A stretch of DNA of 64,000 nucleotides from Leptolyngbya sp. NIES-3755 (lineage in GTDB: Bacteria > Cyanobacteriota > Cyanobacteriia > Leptolyngbyales > Leptolyngbyaceae). The DNA lies in contig AP017308.1 of the NCBI GenBank assembly GCA_001548435.1, forward strand, positions 2,985,030 to 3,049,029, given 5' to 3'. Both the position numbers and the translations under genes were made by a program. The stretch's first letter is position 1. Each line of letters begins with the position of its first letter. The notes under the pieces were generated by a model that was not told where the DNA came from, did no database searches, and saw nothing but the letters and a program-made list of their open reading frames with translations. Of this stretch, positions 9,046-54,695 are shown piece after piece.

Positions 9046-11256
9046 TTACAGTGCTTCTCCTTCGCTCCGAATCAATTGCAGATACTTTCCTTCAATCTGG
9101 CGAAGTTCGTCATGACTACCGCGTTGCACCACTTTTCCGCGATCGAGCACAATAATTTCGTCGCAATCTCGAATCGTGCTCAATCGATGCGCCACAATAA
9201 TGCAGGTACAGCCTCGCTCTCGTAGCTTTTGATCAATGAGCTTCTCAGTTTCAGAATCCAGCGCACTCGTGGCTTCATCCATGACAAGAATCGACGGATT
9301 GTTCACTAGCGATCGCGCAATTTCTAATCGTTGCCGTTGTCCACCACTTAAATTCGTTGCACCTTCAGCAAGGTCAGCATTGTAGCCACCTGGCATTGAT
9401 AGCACTACATCATGAATCGCAGCATCTTTACAAGCTCGAACTAAGTTGTTTTGAGGAATCGTCGCATCCCAGAGTGTTAGATTATCGCGAACACTGCCAG
9501 AAAACAGCGAAATGTCTTGTTCAACAAGTGCGATCGAGTTCGTAATCACTTCACGTCGAATCTGTGCTCTCGGTTGATGATCAAACAGAATTTCACCCGA
9601 CCAAGGCTCATACAAGCCACAAACGAGCTTTGCGACTGTCGATTTACCCGAACCACTTCCGCCTACCAATGCAACTCGTTGACCGGGTCTTAAGCGAAAG
9701 CTCAGATTCTCGATTAACGGTTTGCCTGCACGATTGTAGCCGAAGGTTAAGTTATGAAGCTCAACATAGCCCTGAAGTCGAACCGTTGAGGTAGAGAGTG
9801 ATTTAGGTTGGTTCAAAGCAGCATCGATCGGGTTTCGCAACACGTCATCTAATCGATTGAGATTGCCTTCCATTTCTTGCAGTTCACCCGCGAGTGATAC
9901 TAAATTGTTCACAGGTTCTAGAAACTTCTGCATCATGGCTTGAAATGCTACTAACATTCCGATACTTAACACTCCATCCATCACGCGCAATCCGCCAATC
10001 ACCAACAGTAACATTGAGGTAATCGAAGTGAGAAAAGAAGGCAGAACTCCCAATGTTTGATTCGTTGTATCCATCTCTTGATGTGCGTTGATTGCTTTCG
10101 CGTAGTAGCCTGCCCAGCGTGAAAAGAAGTCAGATTCTAGTCCTGATGCCTTTAAAGTTTCCATACTTTGCAAGCCAGAAATCGAGACTCCACTAACTTT
10201 TCCTTGTTCTTGCATTAATCGCATATTGGCATCGACTCGCTGCCGAGACACCCACCGCCAAACCGTGATATTGACTGCGACAAATGCAATCCCGATCGAG
10301 GTTAAAACCACATCATATTGCAGCATCACGAACGCATAGAAAAAGACGGTGACTGCTGAAATCATAGTAGTTGCAAGTCGTCCAGACAGCAACGCGGCTA
10401 AACTATCGTTCAACCGGACTCGACTGCTAATCTCTCCAGCAAATCGCTGATCATAAAAGCTCACAGGTAAGCGAAGAATGTGCCACAGGAATCGGCTTGA
10501 CATTCCAACTGCAAGCTTAATCTTCATTCGTCGTAGAAACTGAAGTTGTAGCAGCGTAAGGAATCCATTTAGAACTGATGTAAACAAAATTCCGAGAATG
10601 AGCGGGCGAATCCAATCATCGCGACCCTCAATTAAAACATTATCCACAAAGGCTTGAGAAAATGCGGGTAAAGCTAATCCAGGAATGACTAATAACAATC
10701 CCGCGGCAACACAATAAGCTAGTGCACCGATCGAACCTTGCAATTGATCCCATAAAGCCAAAACCGTACTCGGTTTACGTCCACCGGGTCTAAACTCTGC
10801 ACCCGGTTCAAATACGAGAACTACCCCTGTATAAGACTCATTAAATTCTTCAGTAGAAACGGTGCGCGGTCCAGTTGCAGGATCATTGAGATACACCTTA
10901 TTTTTAGCAAAGCCTTCAACCACTAAAAAATGATTAAAGTTCCAGAACACAATATACGGGCACTTTAGCTTTCTGAGTGCTTCTAACTCTGTCTTAAAGC
11001 CTTTCGCTTGTAACTGATAGCTTTTTGCAGCACTAAGAACATTCGAGGCTTTGCTGCCATCGCGTGAAACTCCACAAGCTTGGCGCAATTCAGCAAGTGG
11101 AACAATCCGATCGTAGTAAGCCAAAATAATTCCCAATGCTGCTGCACCACATTCGACCGCTTCCATTTGTAGCAAGGTTGGTGTTCGCCGCCGACTATCG
11201 GGACGGGGTGCTATCGATCGTAGAATTCGCCTGGGTGAAATTCGCCAAAACATCAT
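9046..11256 (-). CDS. NHLM-type ABC transporter with C39 peptidase domain
   Basis: A 736-residue exporter expected to cut double-glycine leaders and export the core. The N-terminal C39 cysteine peptidase domain (about 20-150) has the catalytic Cys in LLQMEAVECGAAALG, the His in WNFNHFLVVEGF and the Asp in VYLNDPATGPR. A transmembrane domain follows at about 170-460. The ATPase domain has GGSGSGKST, LSGGQRQR, LVMDEATSALD and AHRLSTIRDCDE. Two in-frame ATGs (11256, 11253) share the same TTAGGAG ribosome site. Its substrates are very probably the five GG precursors at 15091-16541. Confidence 0.93.
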   Translation of the reverse strand: MMFWRISPRRILRSIAPRPDSRRRTPTLLQMEAVECGAAALGIILAYYDRIVPLAELRQACGVSRDGSKASNVLSAAKSYQLQAKGFKTELEALRKLKCPYIVFWNFNHFLVVEGFAKNKVYLNDPATGPRTVSTEEFNESYTGVVLVFEPGAEFRPGGRKPSTVLALWDQLQGSIGALAYCVAAGLLLVIPGLALPAFSQAFVDNVLIEGRDDWIRPLILGILFTSVLNGFLTLLQLQFLRRMKIKLAVGMSSRFLWHILRLPVSFYDQRFAGEISSRVRLNDSLAALLSGRLATTMISAVTVFFYAFVMLQYDVVLTSIGIAFVAVNITVWRWVSRQRVDANMRLMQEQGKVSGVSISGLQSMETLKASGLESDFFSRWAGYYAKAINAHQEMDTTNQTLGVLPSFLTSITSMLLLVIGGLRVMDGVLSIGMLVAFQAMMQKFLEPVNNLVSLAGELQEMEGNLNRLDDVLRNPIDAALNQPKSLSTSTVRLQGYVELHNLTFGYNRAGKPLIENLSFRLRPGQRVALVGGSGSGKSTVAKLVCGLYEPWSGEILFDHQPRAQIRREVITNSIALVEQDISLFSGSVRDNLTLWDATIPQNNLVRACKDAAIHDVVLSMPGGYNADLAEGATNLSGGQRQRLEIARSLVNNPSILVMDEATSALDSETEKLIDQKLRERGCTCIIVAHRLSTIRDCDEIIVLDRGKVVQRGSHDELRQIEGKYLQLIRSEGEAL

Positions 11257-11263
11257 GCAACTC

Positions 11264-12706
11264 CTAATAAACGCCGCTCCACGATCGCAGAATTGGAAAG
11301 ATAAACGTAATTGGGGCTTGTTCGTCGATCGTCACGCGGACTGAAGTTGTGCTTCCAGAGGTAATCTGTTCTTCAGGTCCTTTGGACGACGACCATCGTA
11401 ATCCGCTCTGGGTAGTCGAATCAGGTTGTAACTCAGCCAATACTTGAATCTGCGGACCTTTCTCGGTCAAACTTTGTAAGAGTTCCGCTCCGCCGATCAC
11501 ATTCGCAGCACTTTCTTTCGTGACAGGAAATGCAGAGACACTTGCGACTTTCGCAACAATGCCTCCAAACCGTTCGCGCTTGACCGTTGAAGGCGTGACT
11601 TGTAGCTCCATACCTTGCCGAATTTTTTTCCCTTCACTCACTGGCAAATATGCAACGCTCATCAACTTGCTCGAAGAATCTTGAGCTTCGATCGTGCCAA
11701 TCCGATCGTTTTCTCGCAGGTTTTGTCCAGGAATTGCAATCACTTCTAACACTCGCCCACTGTAGTTACTCACAACTTGACTTTTGCCTTTAAGCTGTGA
11801 TGAAAGCTCTGTGATTAACCGTTCGGTATCTTGAATTTCTTTTTTTCGATTGGTTGAAATATTCAAATCCTGTTCTGCTTGAGTTGCGATCTTGCTATCT
11901 AACGATTGCAGTTGAGCTTGTATCTCTTTGGCACTGTTGAGATTTTGAAGAAACTGCCTTTGGGCATCGGCTTCTTTGACATCGAGTTGTTTAAGCTGCG
12001 ATTCTGCTTCATTGATGCGCGTTTGGGCACTCAGAACATCTTGTCGCGCCTGTAAGACGATATCGGCTGAAACGGCTCCTTGTTGTAACAGATTCTCGCG
12101 GTTCTTCAATCGCTGCTGAAAGGTGGGTAATAGTTCGCGAGTTGCTTGTAAGCGTTGTTCTAAACTTTGTCGATCGCGCTGGATCGCGTCTAAACCTTTC
12201 TCGCGCAAAATCGGAGTAACTGATTGAGTTGCTGATAAGCTTTGTTGTAATGCTTGTCGTTGTTGTTGAATCGTATTGCTATCAACCCCTTGCCGCTGAA
12301 GTTGCAGTGAATTCGCAGTCCGATCTTGTTCTTGAAGTTGAGCCATCTTCGATCGGGCAAGTTGCAGCTTTTCTTGAAGTTCAGTTTGATCGATCGTAGC
12401 GATGACTTGTCCCTTTTTCACCATGTCACCGACTCGAATATTAATTGCTGCAATCTGACCGGAACTTGGAGACTGAAACGCGGTCACTTTGCTCGGAAAC
12501 ACAATCACACCTTGTCCAGCAACCGTGATCGGAATTCGACCAAACACACTCCAAGCAAGCCCGATCGCAATCAATGAACCCATCGCGGTGAGGGGAATCC
12601 ATTTTCTCGGCTGAACGACTTGCATCAATTGATCCAGCCGCTCCGGAGACGATAATCGATCGAGCGCTTCTTTGCGAAATAGATTCGGTTTCTCAGTTGT
12701 TGTCAT
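11264..12706 (-). CDS. HlyD-family membrane-fusion adaptor of the peptide exporter
   Basis: About 480 residues from the ATG at 12706. A single membrane helix (WIPLTAMGSLIAIGLAWSVFG) is followed by a biotinyl-lipoyl-like half motif (GQIAAINIRVGDMVKKGQVIATID). A long alpha-helical hairpin rich in Gln (about 120-310) and the returning lipoyl/beta-barrel part (SGRVLEVIAIPGQNLREND) follow. This is the periplasmic adaptor of type I/NHLM exporters. It precedes the peptidase transporter by seven bases and begins 36 bases after the CNB gene ends, so the four genes form one operon. A start at 12739 would add eleven residues. Confidence 0.9.
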   Translation of the reverse strand: MTTTEKPNLFRKEALDRLSSPERLDQLMQVVQPRKWIPLTAMGSLIAIGLAWSVFGRIPITVAGQGVIVFPSKVTAFQSPSSGQIAAINIRVGDMVKKGQVIATIDQTELQEKLQLARSKMAQLQEQDRTANSLQLQRQGVDSNTIQQQRQALQQSLSATQSVTPILREKGLDAIQRDRQSLEQRLQATRELLPTFQQRLKNRENLLQQGAVSADIVLQARQDVLSAQTRINEAESQLKQLDVKEADAQRQFLQNLNSAKEIQAQLQSLDSKIATQAEQDLNISTNRKKEIQDTERLITELSSQLKGKSQVVSNYSGRVLEVIAIPGQNLRENDRIGTIEAQDSSSKLMSVAYLPVSEGKKIRQGMELQVTPSTVKRERFGGIVAKVASVSAFPVTKESAANVIGGAELLQSLTEKGPQIQVLAELQPDSTTQSGLRWSSSKGPEEQITSGSTTSVRVTIDEQAPITFIFPILRSWSGVY

Positions 12707-12742: not shown

Positions 12743-13727
12743 TTAGCTGCCTCGAATCTGCTTTAACATCCAGTCGAAACGAGTTCCCGCCAAAGTCACT
12801 TGTGCTAAAAATCCAGAGCTAAGTTCTTCGTCATACGTCAACTTCTCATCCAAAGAGCGACCGGAACTATAACTTAGTCTTCCATAACCCATACCATTGA
12901 TAATTGCTTGCTGTTTCTCAGTTAACAAAATCGCCAACACTCGATAAAAACGAGAGGCGAATCCAACATCATTTAAGAGCTTTGCAGACAATCGCCAGCG
13001 AGGAATCGTTAACACGATCGAGTCTTCGATCGCACGAATCGTCACCGCAGGTGGACTCGCTTCAATAAACGGTGTCTCACCGACAATATCTCCACGCGAA
13101 AGTTGAGCTAACTCTCGTTCGGGTGCTTCGGTATCTTCTAAATTAGAAAAGGCGCGAACCAATGGATTGTTCACATCCTCAGAAACAGAAGCTGCCATTT
13201 TGCCATCGAGTAAAATATGCAAAGCTTCAACAGGTCTACCACCATGAATTAAAACTGTACCCGCCGGAACTTTCGCCGCCTTACCCGCAGCAATCATCCA
13301 ACCAATATCACTATCATTCAGTCCAGCAAAAATAAACAAAACTTCTCTGATCTGAGAATGACAGAGAACTACGGTGCTATGACCAATTTGGCGCACTAAC
13401 TGATCGAGACGATTTGCAAGTAAAACTGCGATCGCTCGATAAAAGTGAGCCGCAAAACTAAGATCTTCGCGCAGTCTTTCCATCAATTGTACTTGTGGAA
13501 TCATCAAGATCAGTGATTTTCTCAGTGCTTTGACCGTAGAAGACGAAAGGTACGACTCTAGAAAAGGCACTTCTCCCGCAAGTTCACCGTTTGCCAATCG
13601 TGCGATTTCTCGTCCGGGCAGTTCTCCTCCTTCTAAAACCGCAAATGCACGACCTAAAGGATTGTCGCCCGCTTGAGCAACGGTAACAATCAATTCTCCA
13701 TCTAATAGAATGTACAGTGCATCAACG
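12743..13727 (-). pseudogene. Cyclic-nucleotide-binding-like export-associated protein, 3' part (split by IS)
   Basis: The larger piece of a gene whose 5' end lies at 14905-15026. Joined across one target duplication it gives an unbroken 365-residue protein made of two related CNB-like modules: ALYILLDGEL in the first and ALHILLDGKM in the second, each followed by GREIARL/ERELAQL and GEVPF/GETPF. Proteins of this two-module kind are known as bacteriocin-transport-associated cyclic-nucleotide-binding-like proteins. Phosphate-binding-cassette residues are not obvious, so ligand binding is uncertain. As the first gene before the adaptor and transporters, its disruption could reduce transcription of the whole export operon. 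Confidence 0.85.
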
Positions 13728-13736
13728 GGGAGCGTG

Positions 13737-14630
13737 TCACCTTCTTGAGAGAATAGATGTCGTGGGATTCAGTTGCTCATTGAGATAAGCACAGCGTTGT
13801 GCCAGCACTTTCGGAATATGCTCCGCTTTCCACCGACCTCCAACAATCTGCAACCGTTGATCAATTTGTTTGACCAACGATTCCACGGCTCCTGACCCAA
13901 TCGAACATAGCTCCTCAGCCGCGTAGTAGTCGTAGTTCACAATCCGATGTTGATGCTTCAGCAGATAGTTGCAAAACCGCTCTGCCTCATCGGAGGGACA
14001 CGCCGCTAATTGGGCTAGAGCAGCGCTCACATCTCCTTTCCATAACTGAGCTTCTATCTGTTCTCGGTCGATTTCGTCGCTCGATAACTTGAACAAGTTC
14101 TCCTTGAGATGATACCAATCGAGAATCTCAATCCGTTGCTCGCTCAACGCGACGATCTGCTGATGCAAGTTCCAGATGCCGTCGTGTCCATCGCCCAGAC
14201 AGACAACGACCTCTGCCATCGGACGCGCGCTCACTGTTGCGACCAATGCCTCATTGTCCTGAAACCAAGCTCGACTTTCTCCCTTGCCATTGATGCGAAC
14301 GGCTTTGTACTGTCGCCAGTCCGGTTCGTCTTGAGTGCCACTGGTTAACTTCACATTGCCGCCATCAATACTGATTTCCAGAATCGGCTCTGGCGCTTCG
14401 GGTTCAAGTTCTTCCCACGGTTGTCGCTGGACTAATCGTTGTTGCGTTTTGGCGCTGACGCGCATTCCTGTATACACCGCGATGTCTCGTTCTGCGCGGG
14501 CATAGGAAACCGTTGCACTCGCTCTCAAACAGCACGCTTCCAAGTAAGGACTCATTTGGCTTCTCGCAGATACCCCTAATCGTGTCGCTTGTTCACTCGT
14601 CAATTGCAGTTCTCCTAAGATACTTTTCAA
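13737..14630 (-). CDS. IS transposase, ORF2 (catalytic part)
   Basis: 297 residues if begun at the TTG at 14630, but more likely made as a -1 frameshift fusion with ORF1 (366 residues). Catalytic-type acidic blocks are visible: ILEISIDGGNVKL, VVVCLGDGHDGIWNLHQQ, IEILDWYHLKENLF and SIGSGAVESLVKQID, as in ISKra4-family transposases. The stop codon lies in the terminal inverted repeat. The protein is identical to those at 40224-41117 and 52772-53665. Confidence 0.92.
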   Translation of the reverse strand: MKSILGELQLTSEQATRLGVSARSQMSPYLEACCLRASATVSYARAERDIAVYTGMRVSAKTQQRLVQRQPWEELEPEAPEPILEISIDGGNVKLTSGTQDEPDWRQYKAVRINGKGESRAWFQDNEALVATVSARPMAEVVVCLGDGHDGIWNLHQQIVALSEQRIEILDWYHLKENLFKLSSDEIDREQIEAQLWKGDVSAALAQLAACPSDEAERFCNYLLKHQHRIVNYDYYAAEELCSIGSGAVESLVKQIDQRLQIVGGRWKAEHIPKVLAQRCAYLNEQLNPTTSILSRR

Positions 14631-14836
14631 CCGTCGCGGGTAGCCTTCAGTTGTGGCGGTAACTGCTGTGATAAAAAACTCCCTAATCCTGGTGTGACGT
14701 GCTGTTGCACTTGAGTTCGCACCATCGCTTCGATTTCTGCCAAATTCGTTATCTGGCTTTTGTCAGCATCGTTGTACAAGATTTTTGCAATCGCTTGAAC
14801 ATGGGCATTCAGCGCTTGTTGGTCTTCAGGAGTCAT
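14627..14836 (-). CDS. IS transposase, ORF1 (N-terminal part)
   Basis: A 69-residue ORF (MTPEDQQALNAHVQAIAKIL...) that overlaps ORF2 by four bases in the 0 frame. It is the N-terminal portion of the transposase. A T_TTT_TTA slip site 42 bases before its stop lets the ribosome move into the ORF2 frame. Identical copies occur at 40018-40227 and 53662-53871. Confidence 0.85.
   Translation of the reverse strand: MTPEDQQALNAHVQAIAKILYNDADKSQITNLAEIEAMVRTQVQQHVTPGLGSFLSQQLPPQLKATRDG
14672..14678 (-). other. Programmed -1 frameshift heptamer (T_TTT_TTA)
   Basis: On the minus strand the sequence AG T TTT TTA lies in the ORF1 frame, with X XXY YYZ phasing. A -1 slip opens a frame running without a stop into ORF2 (FITAVTATTEGYPRR then LKSILGEL). 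The other copies have it at 40176-40182 (+) and 53707-53713 (-). Confidence 0.7.
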
Positions 14837-14904
14837 CGCGGGAACCTCTTCAGGAATCGGTTTCCTTTATTCTCATTTTTCTCCTCAGAAGGTGACACGC
14901 TCCC

Positions 14905-15026
14905 GCATCAACGGGTTCTCCTTGACGCAGAAGAACAGTACCTGCGGCAATTTCTTCTCTGCGACCTGTTGCGAGCAACCAATCAATGTCACTGTTACTG
15001 AGTTCCTTAAGTAGGACTTCTGCCAT
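14905..15026 (-). pseudogene. Cyclic-nucleotide-binding-like export-associated protein, 5' part
   Basis: The ATG at 15026 opens MAEVLLKELSNSDIDWLLAT and reads about 40 codons to the IS boundary. The sequence AAGTVLRQGEPVDA joins directly to ALYILLDGEL in the 3' part once the IS and one copy of GCATCAACG are removed (122 + 976 bases = 366 codons with stop). The start matches the second module's DSDIGWMIAAGK pattern, confirming the gene's internal duplication. Confidence 0.85.
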
Positions 15027-15090: not shown

Positions 15091-15294
15091 CTAATCCTGT
15101 GAATAGTGAGTGTACGTGAAAGAATAGCCGCGCTTACGCGAGTAGGTTCGCGGTTTTCGAGGCTCTCGATCTCTTAACTCGTTCGGTTGTTCATCCTCGC
15201 TGTCGTCTTCGGGTAGATGGGTATAAGCACCGCCCGAAATCTCTTCAAGGTCTTGCTCGGATAGTTCTTGCGATTGTTTTTTCTGGTTGTCCAT
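15091..15294 (-). CDS. Double-glycine precursor peptide (45-residue core)
   Basis: 67 residues from the ATG at 15294, preceded by AAGGAG. The leader of 22 residues ends ELSEQDLEEISGG, a standard C39 peptidase recognition pattern. The core begins AYTHLPEDDSED and is highly charged, then becomes basic and aromatic (KPRTYSRKRGYSFTYTHYSQD). It contains no cysteine. It is the precursor nearest the export genes. No modifying enzyme is encoded nearby, so the mature product may be an unmodified peptide. Confidence 0.75.
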   Translation of the reverse strand: MDNQKKQSQELSEQDLEEISGGAYTHLPEDDSEDEQPNELRDREPRKPRTYSRKRGYSFTYTHYSQD

Positions 15295-15320
15295 TGGTTT
15301 CTCCTTCATCATTTCAGAAA

Positions 15321-15347
15321 GCAGTTGAGTCACAACAACCCAACTGC
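15321..15347. other. Intercistronic hairpin in the peptide operon
   Basis: GCAGTTG (15321-15327) pairs with CAACTGC (15341-15347), between two precursor genes. On the minus strand TTTCTGAAATG follows, too short a T-run for a confident terminator. It could act as an attenuator or processing site. Confidence 0.35.
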
Positions 15348-15370
15348 ATTGAATTTGAAAAACATTGCTA

Positions 15371-15664
15371 TCAGTCAGAACCTTCGATCGCGCTTGCATT
15401 TCCAAACAATCCACTTAGAATTTCAAGATCGTCGGTTGTTGCATCGGTAATCGTAATCTGGAGCGCAGCCGACTCAATTTCTTGAGCTTCAAATGTACTT
15501 TGTGATCCCCCACACCTTGCACCCGCATTCGAGGATCGACTGATAGAAATATTAGATTGGTGAAATCGGGCTGCGGTAATTCGGAGGTTAAATCCCCCGG
15601 ATACTTCGTCTAAATCCTCATCGGATAGCTCGATCGCACCTTCAATCGGAGTCTCGTCGCTCAT
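15371..15664 (-). CDS. Double-glycine precursor peptide, long core (cyanobacterial bacteriocin-like)
   Basis: 97 residues, with a 24-residue leader ending IELSDEDLDEVSGG and a 73-residue core. The core begins FNLRITAARFHQSNISISRS, contains AGARCGGSQSTFEAQE with the only cysteine among the five cores, and ends in an alternating hydrophobic segment (LQITITDATTDDLEILSGLFG). The pattern recalls precursors called CTB-family bacteriocins in cyanobacteria; that name is from memory. AAGGAGACATT precedes the ATG. Confidence 0.75.
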   Translation of the reverse strand: MSDETPIEGAIELSDEDLDEVSGGFNLRITAARFHQSNISISRSSNAGARCGGSQSTFEAQEIESAALQITITDATTDDLEILSGLFGNASAIEGSD

Positions 15665-15694
15665 AATGTCTCCTTCTGATGAGACGGAACTGAA

Positions 15695-15916
15695 TTAGTC
15701 GATCGCTGTTTCGCTGCCGCCGAAGGTCTCGATTTCTTCGTTGAACGCATCGGATCGAACGATCGTGCCTTCTGGTCCTGCGATCACTTCATCAGACACT
15801 TGCTCTACATTAGAGTAGAAGCTTGCATTGGTGCGTTTTCTAATTGCGCCGCCTGCAACAGTTTCGAGTTCTTCTGCGGTCAGTTCCAAGGTTTCGTTGT
15901 ATTTGGTGTCAGCCAT
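15695..15916 (-). CDS. Double-glycine precursor peptide, AIRKRT family, member 3
   Basis: 73 residues from the ATG at 15916 (TTAGGAG upstream). The 23-residue leader ends ELTAEELETVAGG. The 50-residue core starts AIRKRTNASFYSNVEQVSDE and continues with GPEGTIV and DAFNEEIETFGGSETAID. It has no cysteine; the first six core residues are basic and the rest is acidic and Ser/Thr-rich. It is a paralogue of the next two upstream genes, with more substitutions (Y for S, E for F, F for D). Confidence 0.8.
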   Translation of the reverse strand: MADTKYNETLELTAEELETVAGGAIRKRTNASFYSNVEQVSDEVIAGPEGTIVRSDAFNEEIETFGGSETAID

Positions 15917-15959
15917 GATAGTTCTCCTAAAGGGGTTGTGAACAGTGAAATCAAGTAAA

Positions 15960-16004
15960 GGGTTCTGTCTATCAAACGAGATGCACTTGGTTAGAACAGA
16001 ACCC
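15960..16004. other. Intercistronic hairpin in the peptide operon
   Basis: GGGTTCTGT (15960-15968) pairs with ACAGAACCC (15996-16004), a 9-base stem with a 27-base loop. It lies in the 124-base gap between precursor genes. No T-run follows on the minus strand, so RNA processing or partial attenuation is more likely than full termination. Confidence 0.45.
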
Positions 16005-16040
16005 AATGGAAGGGTGTGATCAGGATGGAGACAGTAGCGA

Positions 16041-16265
16041 CTATTCAACGATCGTTTCGCTGCCACCATCAGTATCGATTTCTTCGTTGAACGCATCCGA
16101 ACTCACGATCGTGCCGCCAGGACCAGCACTAACGAAATCCGAAACTTCTTCAACATTCGAGCTAAAGCGAGCATTGGTACGCTTTCTGATTGCGCCCCCT
16201 GCAACGGTTTCGAGTTCTTCAGACGACAGTTCCAATGCTTCGTTGTGCATGATGTTTTCAGACAT
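16041..16265 (-). CDS. Double-glycine precursor peptide, AIRKRT family, member 2
   Basis: 74 residues from the ATG at 16265, with a strong AAGGAGAAA ribosome site. The 24-residue leader ends ELSSEELETVAGG. The core of exactly 50 residues begins AIRKRTNARFSSNVEEVSDF and carries GPGGTIV and EEIDTDGGSETIVE. It has no cysteine. An earlier in-frame start at 16310 lacks a ribosome site and is not used. Confidence 0.82.
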   Translation of the reverse strand: MSENIMHNEALELSSEELETVAGGAIRKRTNARFSSNVEEVSDFVSAGPGGTIVSSDAFNEEIDTDGGSETIVE

Positions 16266-16325
16266 GATGTTTCTCCTTGATAGTTGGGGTTTGATAGAAA
16301 ATGTGGACAAGATGCTTTGAAAGGA

Positions 16326-16541
16326 TTAGTCAACGAGCGTTTCGCTACCACCATCGGTTTCGACTTCTTCGTTCAGTGCATCTGCGGAAACGTCGCTGCC
16401 GTAAGGAGTTGCGCTAACTAAATCAGAGGTTTGCTCCAAGTTCGAGCTAAAGCGAGCAGCAGTCCGCTTTCTGATTGCGCCCCCTGCAACAGATTCGAGT
16501 TCTTCAGCAGAGAGTTCCATTGGATTGCGTTGTTCAGACAT
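16326..16541 (-). CDS. Double-glycine precursor peptide, AIRKRT family, member 1
   Basis: 71 residues, with a 21-residue leader ending ELSAEELESVAGG and a 50-residue core that begins AIRKRTAARFSSNLEQTSDL and ends EEVETDGGSETLVD. TAGGAG precedes the ATG. It is the first gene of the minus-strand run that leads into the CNB-like protein and the exporter, so its upstream region should hold the main promoter. Confidence 0.82.
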   Translation of the reverse strand: MSEQRNPMELSAEELESVAGGAIRKRTAARFSSNLEQTSDLVSATPYGSDVSADALNEEVETDGGSETLVD

Positions 16542-16899: not shown

Positions 16900-17970
16900 A
16901 TGTTAAAAACTTCTAAGCTGGCAACCAAATTTACTTTACTGTTATCGCTTGTGTTTGTGAGTGCGATCGTTCTGAGTGGCTTAGTGTTATCTCGTGCGCT
17001 TGAGAAACGAGCCGAAGGAGATATCAGTTATCGCGGTCAATTGATTTCGGAGATGATTAACTCAGTCAGGTACTATACGGGAGAGCGAGTTGCTCCGCTG
17101 TTGATGCCCCTAGTTGAAACACAATCAACGTTCGTACCTGAAGTCATTCCTAGTTTTTCGGCTAGAGAAGTCTTTGAGAACTTACGCAAAAACAGCGAGT
17201 ACAAAGACTATTTTTACAAAGATGCGTTTCTCGATCCAACCAATCTACGAGACAAAGCGGACGAGTTTGAATCGGAGATTATCGATCGCTTTCGCAACAA
17301 TCCAAACCTGAAATCAGTGTCTAATTTCCGTGATTCATTCGGAGAGCGGCTATTCTATACAGCTCGTCCATTTGTGCTGAAAAATCAAGCTTGTCTTCGC
17401 TGTCATAGTACACCTGAAGTAGCTCCAAAAAGTCATCTTGCAAGTTATGGCTCAGAAAATGGCTTTAATTGGAAACTCAACGAGGTGCTTGGCACTCAGA
17501 TTATCTATGTTCCAGCAAGTCAGGTTCTAGAAAATGCACGTCAAGCTTCTGTATTGTTTATTGGCATCTTCGTTGCTATTTTTGCGATCGTCATTTTGCT
17601 GATTAACTATCTATTGAAGCGAAATGTGATCCAGCCGATCAAGCCACTCGCTCAGATTGCTCAAAAGATTAGTGCTGATGAAATGACCGGAGCGGAAGCA
17701 GAAGAGTTTGAGCGCAAAAAATTAGCGCCGATCGCGAAACGCAATGATGAGCTAGGACAATTAGGGCGCGTCTTTCAAGGAATGGTACGAGAAATTCATG
17801 CACGTGAACAACAATTAAGGCAGCAATTACAGAAACTAAGTCTTGAAATCGATGAAGCAAAGCGATCGCGTCAAGTGGCTGAAATTACTGAAAGCGATAC
17901 CTTCCAACAGTTAAAGCAAGAAGCAAAAGAACTCAGAAGCAAACGAGATGCCACAAACTCGAATTCTTAA
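16900..17970 (+). CDS. Membrane haem sensor: Tll0287-like (DUF3365) domain plus HAMP
   Basis: 356 residues. The N-terminal membrane helix (TLLLSLVFVSAIVLSGLVL) is followed by an extracytoplasmic DUF3365 domain (about 40-215) with the c-type haem attachment motif CLRCH, expected to bind haem covalently for redox or gas sensing. A second helix (FIGIFVAIFAIVILLINYLL) leads into a HAMP domain (RNVIQPIKPLAQIAQKI) and a C-terminal coiled coil. There is no kinase or methyl-accepting output, so the signal must pass to a partner; the ParA-like ATPase 24 bases downstream is the obvious candidate. Confidence 0.88.
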   Translation: MLKTSKLATKFTLLLSLVFVSAIVLSGLVLSRALEKRAEGDISYRGQLISEMINSVRYYTGERVAPLLMPLVETQSTFVPEVIPSFSAREVFENLRKNSEYKDYFYKDAFLDPTNLRDKADEFESEIIDRFRNNPNLKSVSNFRDSFGERLFYTARPFVLKNQACLRCHSTPEVAPKSHLASYGSENGFNWKLNEVLGTQIIYVPASQVLENARQASVLFIGIFVAIFAIVILLINYLLKRNVIQPIKPLAQIAQKISADEMTGAEAEEFERKKLAPIAKRNDELGQLGRVFQGMVREIHAREQQLRQQLQKLSLEIDEAKRSRQVAEITESDTFQQLKQEAKELRSKRDATNSNS

Positions 17971-17994: not shown

Positions 17995-18786
17995 GTGTCT
18001 GAAATTATCTCTGTTCACTCTTTTCGTGGCGGAACTGGTAAATCGAATGTCACCAGTAATTTGGCGACAATCATTGCTCGTTCTGGTAAGCGTGTCGGTA
18101 TTGTCGATACTGATATTCAATCGCCTGGAATTCACATTCTATTTGGGCTAGACGAAGATCGAATTACTTACACGCTGAATGACTATCTTTGGGGGCGTTG
18201 TCGCGTTGAAGAGGCGGCGTATGATGTCAGCCCGATTCTGAGACAGAAACAAAGATTGTTCGGTAAATTAGGCAGCATTCATCTGGTTCCTTCTAGCATT
18301 AAAACGGGCGAAATTTCGCGAATTCTGCGAGAAGGCTATGATGCTCGCTTGCTCAACGATGGACTACGAAATTTAATCGATCGATTAAAATTAGACTATC
18401 TGTTCATCGATACGCATCCTGGCATTAACGAAGAAACATTGCTATCTGTGATTATGTCTGATGTTCTTGTGGTTATTATGCGACCCGATAGCCAGGACTA
18501 TCAAGGAACGGCAGTTGCGGTCGATGTAGCTCGTAAGCTAGAAGTGCCAAAGATGTTCGTTGTAGTGAATAAAGTTTTGCCATCAATGGACTTTAAGGAA
18601 CTGCGCTATCGGGTGCAAAATTCTTACAACACAACCGTTGCAGGTGTTCTTCCAGTATGCGAAGAGATGTTTCGTCTGGGGAGCAGTGACATTTTTTGCT
18701 TGCGACATCCGGATCATCCTTGGTCACATGAAGTGAATGCGATCGCAAAACAAATCGTCGGCTCAAACTCGAAACTATTCGCTTAG
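17995..18786 (+). CDS. ParA/MinD-like ATPase
   Basis: 263 residues from a GTG at 17995 preceded by GAGGAAC. It carries a deviant Walker A (FRGGTGKSNVTSNLA), the VGIVDTDIQSPGI switch region with the usual DTD, and YLFIDTHPGINEETLL as Walker B. Proteins of this family use ATP-dependent dimerisation on membranes or DNA to position complexes. No ParB or plasmid-type centromere repeats are nearby, so chromosome partition is unlikely. Close coupling to the haem sensor suggests a two-gene signalling unit. Confidence 0.88.
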   Translation: MSEIISVHSFRGGTGKSNVTSNLATIIARSGKRVGIVDTDIQSPGIHILFGLDEDRITYTLNDYLWGRCRVEEAAYDVSPILRQKQRLFGKLGSIHLVPSSIKTGEISRILREGYDARLLNDGLRNLIDRLKLDYLFIDTHPGINEETLLSVIMSDVLVVIMRPDSQDYQGTAVAVDVARKLEVPKMFVVVNKVLPSMDFKELRYRVQNSYNTTVAGVLPVCEEMFRLGSSDIFCLRHPDHPWSHEVNAIAKQIVGSNSKLFA

Positions 18787-39395: not shown

Positions 39396-39949
39396 CTATA
39401 GCTTGCTTAAAAATCGGGACTTAAGAAACTTGGCGTTAAATTGCTCGATCGGGGTGAGTTGGTTTATTCTTGCTGTCTTAAATTCTGCCGTAGAGTAACG
39501 CGGACAGTACCAAGATTGCTGCTTGAACACGGATTCGAGAATGTTGTTATAGAAAATTAATCCTTTACGGGCATAGATGGAGTGATACAGGATGAATAGC
39601 ATTTGCTGATCTACAGCTTGAATGTCTGCTTCGGTGATTTGTCGATCGGACAACCACGAGTAATCGACCTGAAACAGGTGGTCGAAGTCGTGCTGAGACG
39701 GATGGTAGTCTTGCGTTTCCAACAAATCATAAGGTGGCAAAAAGTCTTCGTCAAAGTAGAGCAGACTGTACCCTGTGCCGTTTCCCTGCTGCTCTAGATA
39801 AGCGCCCACACCATCGCCTAAGCAAATCGTTGCTGTGGATGACCCTCCTATTTCCGTCAAACTATCGACTTTAATTTGAACTGGGCAAGGATATTGAAAC
39901 AAAAATTCAAACCAGCCTTTCGCATCAATCCCCGGAGAGGCAGACAATC
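39396..39949 (-). pseudogene. YARHG-like domain protein, 3' part (split by IS)
   Basis: The larger piece of a gene whose 5' end is at 41127-41316. Deleting the IS and one CAGACAATC restores 244 codons. The N-terminal half (IKVDSLTEIGGSSTATICLGDG) is unassigned. The C-terminal part (LFILYHSIYARKGLIFYNN and WYCPRYSTAEF, then LTPIEQFNAKFL) resembles the YARHG domain, an extracellular peptidoglycan-linked module of unknown function. No signal peptide is obvious in the restored N-terminus. Confidence 0.75.
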
Positions 39950-40017
39950 GGGAGCGTGTCACCTTCTGAGGAGAAAAATGAGAATAAAGGAAACCGATTC
40001 CTGAAGAGGTTCCCGCG

Positions 40018-40227
40018 ATGACTCCTGAAGACCAACAAGCGCTGAATGCCCATGTTCAAGCGATTGCAAAAATCTTGTACAACGATGCTGACAAAAGCCA
40101 GATAACGAATTTGGCAGAAATCGAAGCGATGGTGCGAACTCAAGTGCAACAGCACGTCACACCAGGATTAGGGAGTTTTTTATCACAGCAGTTACCGCCA
40201 CAACTGAAGGCTACCCGCGACGGTTGA
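40018..40227 (+). CDS. IS transposase, ORF1 (copy 2)
   Basis: 69 residues, identical to the ORF1 of copies 1 and 3. The slip heptamer TTTTTTA is at 40176-40182, phased as AG T TTT TTA in this frame. It overlaps ORF2 by four bases. Confidence 0.85.
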   Translation: MTPEDQQALNAHVQAIAKILYNDADKSQITNLAEIEAMVRTQVQQHVTPGLGSFLSQQLPPQLKATRDG

Positions 40228-41117
40228 AAAGTATCTTAGGAGAACTGCAATTGACGAGTGAACAAGCGACACGATTAGGGGTATCTGCGAGAAGCCAAAT
40301 GAGTCCTTACTTGGAAGCGTGCTGTTTGAGAGCGAGTGCAACGGTTTCCTATGCCCGCGCAGAACGAGACATCGCGGTGTATACAGGAATGCGCGTCAGC
40401 GCCAAAACGCAACAACGATTAGTCCAGCGACAACCGTGGGAAGAACTTGAACCCGAAGCGCCAGAGCCGATTCTGGAAATCAGTATTGATGGCGGCAATG
40501 TGAAGTTAACCAGTGGCACTCAAGACGAACCGGACTGGCGACAGTACAAAGCCGTTCGCATCAATGGCAAGGGAGAAAGTCGAGCTTGGTTTCAGGACAA
40601 TGAGGCATTGGTCGCAACAGTGAGCGCGCGTCCGATGGCAGAGGTCGTTGTCTGTCTGGGCGATGGACACGACGGCATCTGGAACTTGCATCAGCAGATC
40701 GTCGCGTTGAGCGAGCAACGGATTGAGATTCTCGATTGGTATCATCTCAAGGAGAACTTGTTCAAGTTATCGAGCGACGAAATCGACCGAGAACAGATAG
40801 AAGCTCAGTTATGGAAAGGAGATGTGAGCGCTGCTCTAGCCCAATTAGCGGCGTGTCCCTCCGATGAGGCAGAGCGGTTTTGCAACTATCTGCTGAAGCA
40901 TCAACATCGGATTGTGAACTACGACTACTACGCGGCTGAGGAGCTATGTTCGATTGGGTCAGGAGCCGTGGAATCGTTGGTCAAACAAATTGATCAACGG
41001 TTGCAGATTGTTGGAGGTCGGTGGAAAGCGGAGCATATTCCGAAAGTGCTGGCACAACGCTGTGCTTATCTCAATGAGCAACTGAATCCCACGACATCTA
41101 TTCTCTCAAGAAGGTGA
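40224..41117 (+). CDS. IS transposase, ORF2 (copy 2)
   Basis: 297 residues from a TTG at 40224, or part of a 366-residue frameshift fusion. It is identical in sequence to the other two copies, including DGHDGIWN and DWYHLKENLF, so all three elements appear intact. Confidence 0.92.
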   Translation: MKSILGELQLTSEQATRLGVSARSQMSPYLEACCLRASATVSYARAERDIAVYTGMRVSAKTQQRLVQRQPWEELEPEAPEPILEISIDGGNVKLTSGTQDEPDWRQYKAVRINGKGESRAWFQDNEALVATVSARPMAEVVVCLGDGHDGIWNLHQQIVALSEQRIEILDWYHLKENLFKLSSDEIDREQIEAQLWKGDVSAALAQLAACPSDEAERFCNYLLKHQHRIVNYDYYAAEELCSIGSGAVESLVKQIDQRLQIVGGRWKAEHIPKVLAQRCAYLNEQLNPTTSILSRR

Positions 41118-41126
41118 CACGCTCCC

Positions 41127-52762: not shown

Positions 52763-52771
52763 GGGAGCGTG

Positions 52772-53665
52772 TCACCTTCTTGAGAGAATAGATGTCGTGG
52801 GATTCAGTTGCTCATTGAGATAAGCACAGCGTTGTGCCAGCACTTTCGGAATATGCTCCGCTTTCCACCGACCTCCAACAATCTGCAACCGTTGATCAAT
52901 TTGTTTGACCAACGATTCCACGGCTCCTGACCCAATCGAACATAGCTCCTCAGCCGCGTAGTAGTCGTAGTTCACAATCCGATGTTGATGCTTCAGCAGA
53001 TAGTTGCAAAACCGCTCTGCCTCATCGGAGGGACACGCCGCTAATTGGGCTAGAGCAGCGCTCACATCTCCTTTCCATAACTGAGCTTCTATCTGTTCTC
53101 GGTCGATTTCGTCGCTCGATAACTTGAACAAGTTCTCCTTGAGATGATACCAATCGAGAATCTCAATCCGTTGCTCGCTCAACGCGACGATCTGCTGATG
53201 CAAGTTCCAGATGCCGTCGTGTCCATCGCCCAGACAGACAACGACCTCTGCCATCGGACGCGCGCTCACTGTTGCGACCAATGCCTCATTGTCCTGAAAC
53301 CAAGCTCGACTTTCTCCCTTGCCATTGATGCGAACGGCTTTGTACTGTCGCCAGTCCGGTTCGTCTTGAGTGCCACTGGTTAACTTCACATTGCCGCCAT
53401 CAATACTGATTTCCAGAATCGGCTCTGGCGCTTCGGGTTCAAGTTCTTCCCACGGTTGTCGCTGGACTAATCGTTGTTGCGTTTTGGCGCTGACGCGCAT
53501 TCCTGTATACACCGCGATGTCTCGTTCTGCGCGGGCATAGGAAACCGTTGCACTCGCTCTCAAACAGCACGCTTCCAAGTAAGGACTCATTTGGCTTCTC
53601 GCAGATACCCCTAATCGTGTCGCTTGTTCACTCGTCAATTGCAGTTCTCCTAAGATACTTTTCAA
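52772..53665 (-). CDS. IS transposase, ORF2 (copy 3)
   Basis: 297 residues, identical to the other two copies; DGHDGIWN, DWYHLKENLF and SIGSGAVES motifs present. Start is the TTG at 53665 or a frameshift from ORF1. Confidence 0.92.
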   Translation of the reverse strand: MKSILGELQLTSEQATRLGVSARSQMSPYLEACCLRASATVSYARAERDIAVYTGMRVSAKTQQRLVQRQPWEELEPEAPEPILEISIDGGNVKLTSGTQDEPDWRQYKAVRINGKGESRAWFQDNEALVATVSARPMAEVVVCLGDGHDGIWNLHQQIVALSEQRIEILDWYHLKENLFKLSSDEIDREQIEAQLWKGDVSAALAQLAACPSDEAERFCNYLLKHQHRIVNYDYYAAEELCSIGSGAVESLVKQIDQRLQIVGGRWKAEHIPKVLAQRCAYLNEQLNPTTSILSRR

Positions 53666-53871
53666 CCGTCGCGGGTAGCCTTCAGTTGTGGCGGTAACTG
53701 CTGTGATAAAAAACTCCCTAATCCTGGTGTGACGTGCTGTTGCACTTGAGTTCGCACCATCGCTTCGATTTCTGCCAAATTCGTTATCTGGCTTTTGTCA
53801 GCATCGTTGTACAAGATTTTTGCAATCGCTTGAACATGGGCATTCAGCGCTTGTTGGTCTTCAGGAGTCAT
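53662..53871 (-). CDS. IS transposase, ORF1 (copy 3)
   Basis: 69 residues, identical to copies 1 and 2, with the slip heptamer at 53707-53713 on the minus strand. Confidence 0.85.
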   Translation of the reverse strand: MTPEDQQALNAHVQAIAKILYNDADKSQITNLAEIEAMVRTQVQQHVTPGLGSFLSQQLPPQLKATRDG

Positions 53872-53939
53872 CGCGGGAACCTCTTCAGGAATCGGTTTCC
53901 TTTATTCTCATTTTTCTCCTCAGAAGGTGACACGCTCCC

Positions 53940-54695
53940 GATGTAAAGCCGTCCGCCGATTCCCTCAAAAGCTTGTACAACCTGTTCTAGAGCTTGTTGG
54001 AGTTGCATTTCAGGAAGCGCATGGAGCAGAGAAGTAATTTGATTAATTGCGGCTTCTTGAGCAGCATAGCGACGAGTTTCGTGGAGAATATTCGATTGTG
54101 CGATCGCAATGGATACCTGATCAGAAATCAACTGTATGATCTGAAGCTCTGCCTGGGTAAATCGATGCGGTTCACTATGATGCGATACTAACAATCCCCA
54201 AAGTTCACCCTGAGCAATAATCGGCACTACTAACGACGATCGCACTCCCATCGCAGTTAAGTACTCAATATGACACGGATCAACCGCACGAAAATATAGC
54301 TCTCCCTCGATCACTGTTCCATTAGAATCCTCGATCAAAGGACTTGTGCCGATTTCCTGAGTAGACACATCCACAATCGATCGCTGTCTGACTTTGAGAA
54401 AGAGTTCTCTCGCTTCAGGTGGAATATCGCCTGCTGGAAACCAATGATTGAGCAATGACGGTAATCGATTGTCTTGAATCGATTCTGCCACGACTTCACC
54501 GCTGCCATCTGTATCGAATCGATAGATTTTGACGCGATCGGTTTGCAAAAATGCACGAACTTCCGCAACAGTCGCGTTTAGAATCGTGGGTAGTTCTAGA
54601 GATTGTCGAATTTGATTGATCATTCGATGCAACAGCACCGCGAATGCTGTTTGTTGAGCTTCTGATAGCGTGGCATCGTGTGGGGTAGAGAACAT
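53940..54695 (-). pseudogene. GAF-PAS sensory histidine kinase, 5' part, bilin-type GAF
   Basis: Starts MFSTPHDATLSEAQQTAFAV and encodes about 250 residues to the IS boundary (GIGGRLYI). The GAF domain (about 35-205) carries GDIPPEARELF, then FRAVDPCHIEYLTAMGVRSS with C141-H142, the position of the bilin-linking Cys-His in phytochromes and cyanobacteriochromes, and LWGLLVSHHSEPHRF. It is therefore a candidate photoreceptor domain, though no chromophore test is possible here. Fused to the 3' part in frame after deletion of the IS and one GATGTAAA. Confidence 0.85.

Follow-up and report, generated by a model that had tools for sequence, protein, structure and literature searches.

Peptide cores exchanged at the GG codon in cyanobacterial C39 exporter operons, with a two-part companion precursor

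The window analysed here is a stretch of 64,000 nucleotides from Leptolyngbya sp. NIES-3755 (contig AP017308.1, positions 2,985,030 to 3,049,029), which carries five small double-glycine (GG) precursor genes, P1 to P5, in one operon with an exporter of the C39 type. Comparison of this locus with its relatives indicates that the cores of P1 to P3 and of their counterparts elsewhere, here called type A and belonging to the CTB peptide family, are exchanged blockwise, with leader, promoter and exporter staying nearly constant and the breakpoint falling at the GG codon that ends the leader. Core types are shared across genera, and the single-copy precursor P4 is made of two parts, a variable front half and a conserved tail. 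New here are core exchange at the cleavage codon, core types common to several genera and the two-part P4; published work or NCBI models already cover the peptide family, its exporter and the layout of the cluster.

All five open reading frames (ORFs) reported in a first-pass annotation of the sequence were confirmed on the minus strand, and so were the leaders of 21, 24 and 23 residues of P1 to P3, each with a C-terminal VAGG, and their 50-residue cores, which open with AIRKRT and carry GGSET close to the end. In a search with the NCBIfam profile of the CTB family, NF038167 (cyan_ocin_like), P1 to P4 exceed the cut-off with alignments spanning nearly the whole model (Table 1), and they stand in a tandem array as members of that family do; tandem arrangement in cyanobacteria, which the window array fits, was taken as a mark of the family from its name. 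Since P4 exceeds the cut-off, it is a relative of P1 to P3 and not one of "two unrelated" precursors as had been annotated; compared with the family model it has a conserved tail reaching about 26 residues further. P5 resembles CTB peptides in its leader alone and lies outside the family. The hint of a new family has to be withdrawn, as NF038167 already exists, with matches above cut-off in 28 of 292 genomes of the phylum and in tandem arrays, and the layout is that of the group V clusters of Wang, Fewer and Sivonen (2011). Likewise, the "invariant" AIRKRT start is invariant among the three paralogues and not beyond them: a search of 386 genomes with P1 to P3 gave strong matches solely in the genome of the window and weak CTB matches in two others, and AIRKRT was rejected as a family signature. 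Pooled over the three pairs of P1 to P3 cores, nonsynonymous divergence (dN) is 0.23 against a synonymous divergence (dS) of 1.3, two of the three dS values being near saturation, so the cores evolve as proteins. None of P1 to P5 reaches the cut-offs of the nitrile-hydratase-like and Nif11 precursor models in the profile search.

The replacement of cores is visible already within the genus. Between the window and the locus L092, the exporter genes are 88-95% identical in amino acid sequence, and the type-A cores are 8-19% identical in all nine core pairs, where shuffled cores give a mean of 18.7%. The P4 cores of the two loci are 40% identical (19% when shuffled) and the P5 cores 20% (21% when shuffled). 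Three stretches of DNA homology between these loci end 1 nt from a leader end, at 16480, 16195 and 15849. Nostoc linckia FACHB-104 (L110) and Calothrix membranacea FACHB-236 (L114) have flanks of about 92-98% DNA identity around unlike cores; the homologous block over the promoter and leader of the first type-A gene stops at the last base of the GG codon (9348), and homology resumes at 10190, within P4, in this single pair mapped in detail.

For the wider comparison, loci with TIGR03896, the cyclic-nucleotide-domain gene of the exporter, were inspected in the family of the window and 18 stretches were compared; a scan of genome contigs with P4 gave seven loci, including those of Nostoc linckia FACHB-104, Calothrix membranacea FACHB-236, Desmonostoc muscorum FACHB-395 and Phormidesmis priestleyi ULC007. 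P4 has matches at E <= 1e-8 in 43 of 217 genomes of the Nostoc-like family, and the 20 genomes with a full-length match (E <= 2e-31) entered the comparison, the other 23 being left out. With five loci of the window's family (the window, L092, L098, L099 and L101) they form a set of 25 genomes, duplicates counted once. No P4 match was found in 72,556 plasmid records. The P4-bearing loci have a common order, namely divergent Tll0287-like/HAMP and ParA-like genes, the type-A genes, one P4, one or two P5 and four exporter genes; type-A genes number 2-7 in the P4 loci inspected first and up to 10 across the 25 genomes. The locus L093 (G297) has type-A genes and the exporter, but it lacks P5 and its P4-like peptide is only distantly similar; it stands outside the set and is included in the tables of exporter identity, within-locus core identity and core properties. 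L169, at a contig end and with no type-A gene, was excluded from typing, and so was the third core of L171, which contains a masked run; typing used all three window cores and both L098 cores. Core types were defined by single linkage with a chosen cut-off of at least 50% identity for the best pair, and the 24 typed loci fall into seven types, T1 being a loose class.

The breakpoint was then counted over all different-type locus pairs with exporters at least 90% identical, all 34 of which contribute (34 by pairwise alignment, 35 by another alignment, the latter out of 74 locus pairs at this identity). Among the blastn alignments that enter type-A genes through the leader, 652 of 675 end at most 3 nt from the GG codon and one extends more than 30 nt past it, although the 675 are not mutually independent, as they come from 34 locus pairs of which about nine involve L175; by median, 32 of the 34 pairs end within 3 nt. 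These counts are the same with or without an upper limit of 150 nt on the overrun. In the same-type control (39 pairs), each of the 1377 alignments extends at least 100 nt past the GG codon, and not one stops within 9 nt of it.

Core types are also distributed across the exporter phylogeny. On an exporter tree built by a quick method, the approximately unbiased (AU) test rejects a single clade for each of the four types with more than one member, T1 (p 2.8e-6), T2 (1.7e-4), T3 (7.6e-10) and T4 (1.3e-10). Five loci of the genus g163, with exporter identities of 97.6-98.6% between types, carry T1, T2, T3 and T4; the genus g180 has T2 and T3, and T2 is found additionally in g22. T5 (the window) and T6 (L092) are single-locus types, and the evidence for exchange across genera comes from the other types. 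Outside T1, whose cross-genus pairs were not part of the dS comparison, core dS is below exporter dS in five of eight same-type cross-genus pairs (0.53-0.73 against 1.19-1.36).

Could the same pattern have arisen by gradual divergence of fast-evolving secreted peptides, with gene conversion inside each locus and no exchange of cassettes? Copies are indeed alike within one locus (mean core identity 38-92%) and cores of unlike loci are near chance, and Wang et al. found very little conservation of cores (PMC3140520; this and the other papers are cited from excerpts of their text). We nevertheless regard this explanation as very improbable. The loci L159 and L176 have an exporter dS of 0.148, yet their cores are unlike (26% identity), with promoter and leader DNA aligned up to the GG codon; the lower core dS in five of the eight pairs also speaks against it, and so does the purified appearance of copies within a locus, for which pooled dN/dS is 0.18 in the window and 0.18-0.56 in eight other loci.

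The core of P4 has a variable front half and a conserved tail (window sequence: ITDATTDDLEILSGLFGNASAIEGSD), and between L110 and L114 the front half is 26% identical and the tail 90%. Corrected for exporter similarity, the front half follows the core type with a partial Mantel coefficient of 0.80 (p 0.0002, the floor of the test; n 24). The same test shows no tracking of core type by the neighbouring Tll0287 (-0.04, n 24) and ParA (-0.14, n 18) genes.

The peptides of the locus are apparently unmodified, to judge from the gene content. The first-pass annotation had found no radical-SAM, YcaO or lanthionine enzyme in the window, and this is borne out: the genome has 24 radical-SAM matches, none of them within the window; YcaO (PF02624) has no match in the genome, with control matches in 5 of 14 genomes; LANC_like (PF05147) has none either, with a control match in 1 of 14; and DUF4135 (LanM, PF13575) has none, the control genomes being silent too. 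A lanthipeptide or a linear azole-containing peptide (LAP) as the product was rejected, as the genome has no match to PF05147 or PF02624. All 41 type-A cores examined, from 11 loci, are free of Cys and acidic, with net charges of -1 to -7, and they have no strongly hydrophobic stretch (the highest Kyte-Doolittle mean over 15 residues is 1.47). The earlier description of unmodified, Cys-free exported peptides can thus be kept, by inference, for type A, while P4 contains one Cys. In these properties type-A cores are unlike class II peptides, which are cationic and membrane-active.

This bears on the function that the family name implies. In a polymorphic multi-component bacteriocin, the type-A cores would kill relatives of another type, and immunity would come from P4, as a co-exported peptide with a type-linked front half, or from a distant gene. 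The NCBI family is named as a bacteriocin, replacement of cassettes and their sharing across genera would fit frequency-dependent warfare, and a CTB operon of Nodularia is induced in phosphate starvation, which its authors discussed as allelopathy (PMC9846622). The acidic, Cys-free cores and their lack of a strongly hydrophobic stretch do not fit this picture. Between the first type-A gene and P4, where 16 small non-GG ORFs were found in the 24 loci, there is no recurring type-specific non-GG ORF of at least 40 residues; one ORF of 40-48 residues, which overlaps P4 at its end, is common to seven T1 loci and present as a variant in the T2 locus L175. Immunity might lie in a shorter ORF, in P4 or P5, or in a distant gene. 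The Tll0287 and ParA neighbours do not track the core type, as given above. An ordinary killing bacteriocin is made less plausible by the acidic cores and by the absence, from the swapped block, of an immunity-like ORF that recurs with the type; we consider this function unlikely, though a rival to be taken seriously.

GG-exported pheromones are common, and the cores might instead be signals, which the first-pass annotation had offered beside a multi-component bacteriocin, each read by its own type, with the Tll0287-HAMP protein as the sensor. Such a sensor-like gene often adjoins the locus, and P3 matches the VP1 pheromone model below threshold (22.4 bits against a cut-off of 85), mainly in the leader. 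The neighbouring sensor, however, does not covary with the core type, so that a type-matched receptor would need to be elsewhere, and cores of 48-65 residues in up to 10 similar copies resemble a bulk product. A signalling role is improbable in our view, more so than killing.

We propose the following mechanism. First, the operon consists of a C39-type exporter with a cargo of apparently unmodified CTB-family peptides; judging from the sequence motif, the exporter would cleave the leaders and release the peptides. If the leaders are removed by the exporter, a core could therefore be swapped without altering the processing, and rare or new core types may be favoured by selection. Second, and less certainly, the released type-A peptides may form beta-hairpins and, once outside the cell, assemble into a polymer of the surface or matrix that is specific to the strain. 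For the P2 core (17 sequences), AlphaFold predicts one long hairpin that turns in its glycine-rich middle (mean predicted local distance difference test score, pLDDT, 68; predicted template modelling score, pTM, 0.25), and for P4 the same kind of hairpin with a helix near the C-terminal end (5 sequences; mean pLDDT 60, pTM 0.29). With its matching hairpin, its type-linked front half and its conserved C-terminal helix, P4 could be a minor anchoring or nucleating subunit, again less certainly.

A precedent by analogy exists in Synechococcus elongatus, where biofilm formation requires the GG peptides EbfG1-4, whose secretion depends on a C39 transporter; EbfG1-3 are amyloid-forming, and EbfG4, located on the cell surface, is non-amyloid (PMC4997328, PMC9981879). 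The likeness lies in the tandem GG precursors, the C39-assisted export and the presence of several amyloid members with one non-amyloid member, and the roles of type-A peptides and P4 may be likened to those of EbfG1-3 and EbfG4, respectively. The mature parts of EbfG were reported to be without homology to proteins of other cyanobacteria in these papers. The comparison is an analogy because the CTB model does not find EbfG, as will be seen below. On these grounds we tentatively favour, at somewhat under even confidence, type-A peptides as polymorphic, self-assembling secreted peptides of the surface or matrix, with P4 as a minor anchored partner. A bolder version, which we hold to be doubtful, is a polymorphic extracellular identity system, whose cassettes would recombine at the cleavage codon and inside P4 and be exchanged between genera, and in which P4 would be a two-part adaptor, its front half matching the coat peptide and its tail docking to the cell. 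If this were true, a strain could adopt the secreted peptide coat of another while keeping its own promoter, leader and exporter, and the coat would serve self-recognition in filaments or mats, or escape from phages or grazers.

Several observations weigh against the surface-polymer reading and the exchange on which it builds. Both structure models are weak by the scores given above, and no assay of assembly, secretion or surface location of CTB peptides was found in the excerpted literature. The CTB model finds no EbfG: none of the 14 control genomes matches, S. elongatus included, the sequences being compared via this model only. The core types show some clustering along the exporter tree, with 11 changes against a shuffled mean of 12.6, a value as low being reached in 11 of 200 shuffles. 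The P4 tail (0.38, p 0.0004) and P5 (0.32, p 0.0025, n 23; the window P5 is included, and L157 is absent, having no P5 by pattern search) track the core type too, though less than the front half does. The covariation of the front half could be explained by linkage alone, because it lies inside the exchanged block, and it is not clearly closer to the type-A cores of its own locus, own similarity being higher in 14 of 24 loci. Among the same-type cross-genus pairs, L171-L175 and L172-L175 have core dS of 0.67-0.80 against 0.60-0.62 for the exporter, with no sign of recent transfer, and one T4 pair is saturated in dS. Because core dS is lower in five of the eight pairs and not in these two, some exchange of cores between genera is likely, and part of the sharing may be old polymorphism.

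With respect to known systems, group V clusters contain HlyD, a short C39 transporter, a second ABC transporter and a bimodular CAP_ED protein, with an average of 3.08 precursors (PMC3140520). All four genes are present in the window, the one with two CAP_ED domains being split by an insertion element; the excerpts of that paper describe diverse cores, and do not describe core types, breakpoints at the GG codon or P4. The NHLP export cassette (PMC2887384) is likewise recognisable, as TIGR03794, TIGR03796 and TIGR03797 stand side by side in the window above their cut-offs; unlike that cassette as excerpted, the window has no modifying enzyme that we could find, and P1 to P5 are not called by its precursor models. 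The prochlorosins (PMC10783134) also draw hypervariable precursors into one pathway, but they are LanM-modified and of Nif11 type, and the genome of the window has no LanC match. Swapping at the GG codon, cross-genus core types and a two-part P4 were not found in titles and the beginnings of abstracts, nor in the excerpts of PMC3140520, PMC4997328, PMC9981879, PMC9846622, PMC9679502, PMC2887384 and PMC10783134.

CTB peptides bear a bacteriocin label, for which the excerpted literature yielded no functional test. Some strains, such as Nostoc linckia FACHB-104 and Calothrix membranacea FACHB-236, have core type as their main difference, so that killing, signalling and surface identity can be separated by a comparison or an exchange limited to a single small block. 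Because one leader is compatible with many unlike cores, it might also be useful as a platform for export.

The exporter follows the precursors, as first annotated, with matches to TIGR03796 and Peptidase_C39; what had been missed is that its first gene, TIGR03896, is split in the window strain by an element of the ISKra4 family. The element is flanked on both sides by a perfect 9-bp direct repeat, GCATCAACG, and has the inverted ends GGGAGCGTGTCAC and GTGACACGCTCCC. Four copies identical over about 1178 bp were seen, three in the window (13728-14904, 39949-41126 and 52763-53940) and one in a nearby CTB locus of the same genome, L009 (15613-16790), and each is bordered by a short direct repeat of 7-9 bp. 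Because the four copies are identical and each has direct repeats, recent transposition is suggested, and the insertion into TIGR03896 is probably recent. As the element cuts the cyclic-nucleotide-domain gene, CTB export or its regulation may be impaired in this strain. The locus might thus be a decaying remnant here, switched off by the insertion, a reading compatible with any function in other strains; the split gene with its perfect repeat, which is intact in the same-genus loci L092, L093 and L094, argues for it. All five precursors and the three exporter genes after the element (HlyD, C39 ABC and second ABC) remain open, however, and the element may still permit downstream transcription. 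We rate the remnant as rather unlikely.

Table 1. Features of the CTB locus and its surroundings, in positions of the window
Feature	Position	Strand	Evidence
P1, type-A CTB precursor, 71 aa (leader 21 + core 50)	16326..16541	-	NF038167 48.5 bits (cut-off 32), E 7.4e-13
P2, type-A CTB precursor, 74 aa (leader 24 + core 50)	16041..16265	-	NF038167 60.6 bits, E 1.2e-16 (query with one additional upstream codon)
P3, type-A CTB precursor, 73 aa (leader 23 + core 50)	15695..15916	-	NF038167 50.5 bits, E 1.8e-13
P4, single-copy CTB-like precursor, 97 aa (24 + 73)	15371..15664	-	NF038167 53.9 bits, E 1.6e-14
P5, GG precursor, 67 aa (22 + 45)	15091..15294	-	CTB likeness in leader alone, 15.9 bits (below cut-off 32)
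Cyclic-nucleotide-domain gene (TIGR03896), 5' fragment	14905..15026	-	ORF 14850-15026, 34.3 bits
ISKra4-family insertion element	13728..14904	-	transposase 13737-14630; NF033572 237.9 bits (cut-off 205)
Cyclic-nucleotide-domain gene (TIGR03896), 3' fragment	12743..13727	-	ORF 12743-13693, 262.4 bits
HlyD-like adaptor, TIGR03794 (NHLP system)	11264..12706	-	385.5 bits (cut-off 156.2); start ATG picked by comparison with L092
C39 peptidase/ABC exporter, TIGR03796	9046..11256	-	1176.4 bits (cut-off 853.3); Peptidase_C39 8.5e-37
Second ABC transporter without peptidase, TIGR03797	6124..9030	-	1046.6 bits (cut-off 709.4)
Divergent Tll0287-like/HAMP membrane protein with CxxCH motif	16900..17970	+	PF11845 3.4e-38
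ParA/MinD-like ATPase	17995..18786	+	PF10609 1.5e-18

The Tll0287-like and ParA genes adjoin the cluster in the window and in all nine other P4-bearing loci inspected. Of 13 other TIGR03896 loci, two have both neighbours (L093 and L097), one has the Tll0287-like gene alone (L096) and ten have neither, one of these being a contig of 3.4 kb. In the 25-genome set, where shorter stretches were compared, Tll0287 is present in 24 and ParA in 22. The two proteins may serve the exporter as redox sensor and positioning ATPase, respectively.

Further CTB and GG-peptide loci were seen in the course of the comparison. The genome of the window has two more CTB loci outside it. L009 (G000:C1:2926000-2945000), about 49 kb from the window, has four small ORFs with short GG-type leaders adjoining a rotamase-domain protein; its 19-kb stretch yielded no C39 transporter, and an ORF of 1265 residues considered for that role was rejected as CobN/Mg-chelatase. 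L010 (G000:C1:5218000-5237000) has one CTB precursor followed by an HlyD protein and a C39 transporter of 719 residues, directly after which lies a second GG peptide. In another genome (G091; L118 / L036), one of the seven members of a CTB array shares the leader of the others but differs from them in most of its core, which may reflect a core swap inside one array. At the locus L104 (G317:C19), close to a C39 transporter, there are six Nif11-like leader peptides in tandem whose cores are very short and variable; the first of the six, when checked, matched PF07862 at 3.3e-9.

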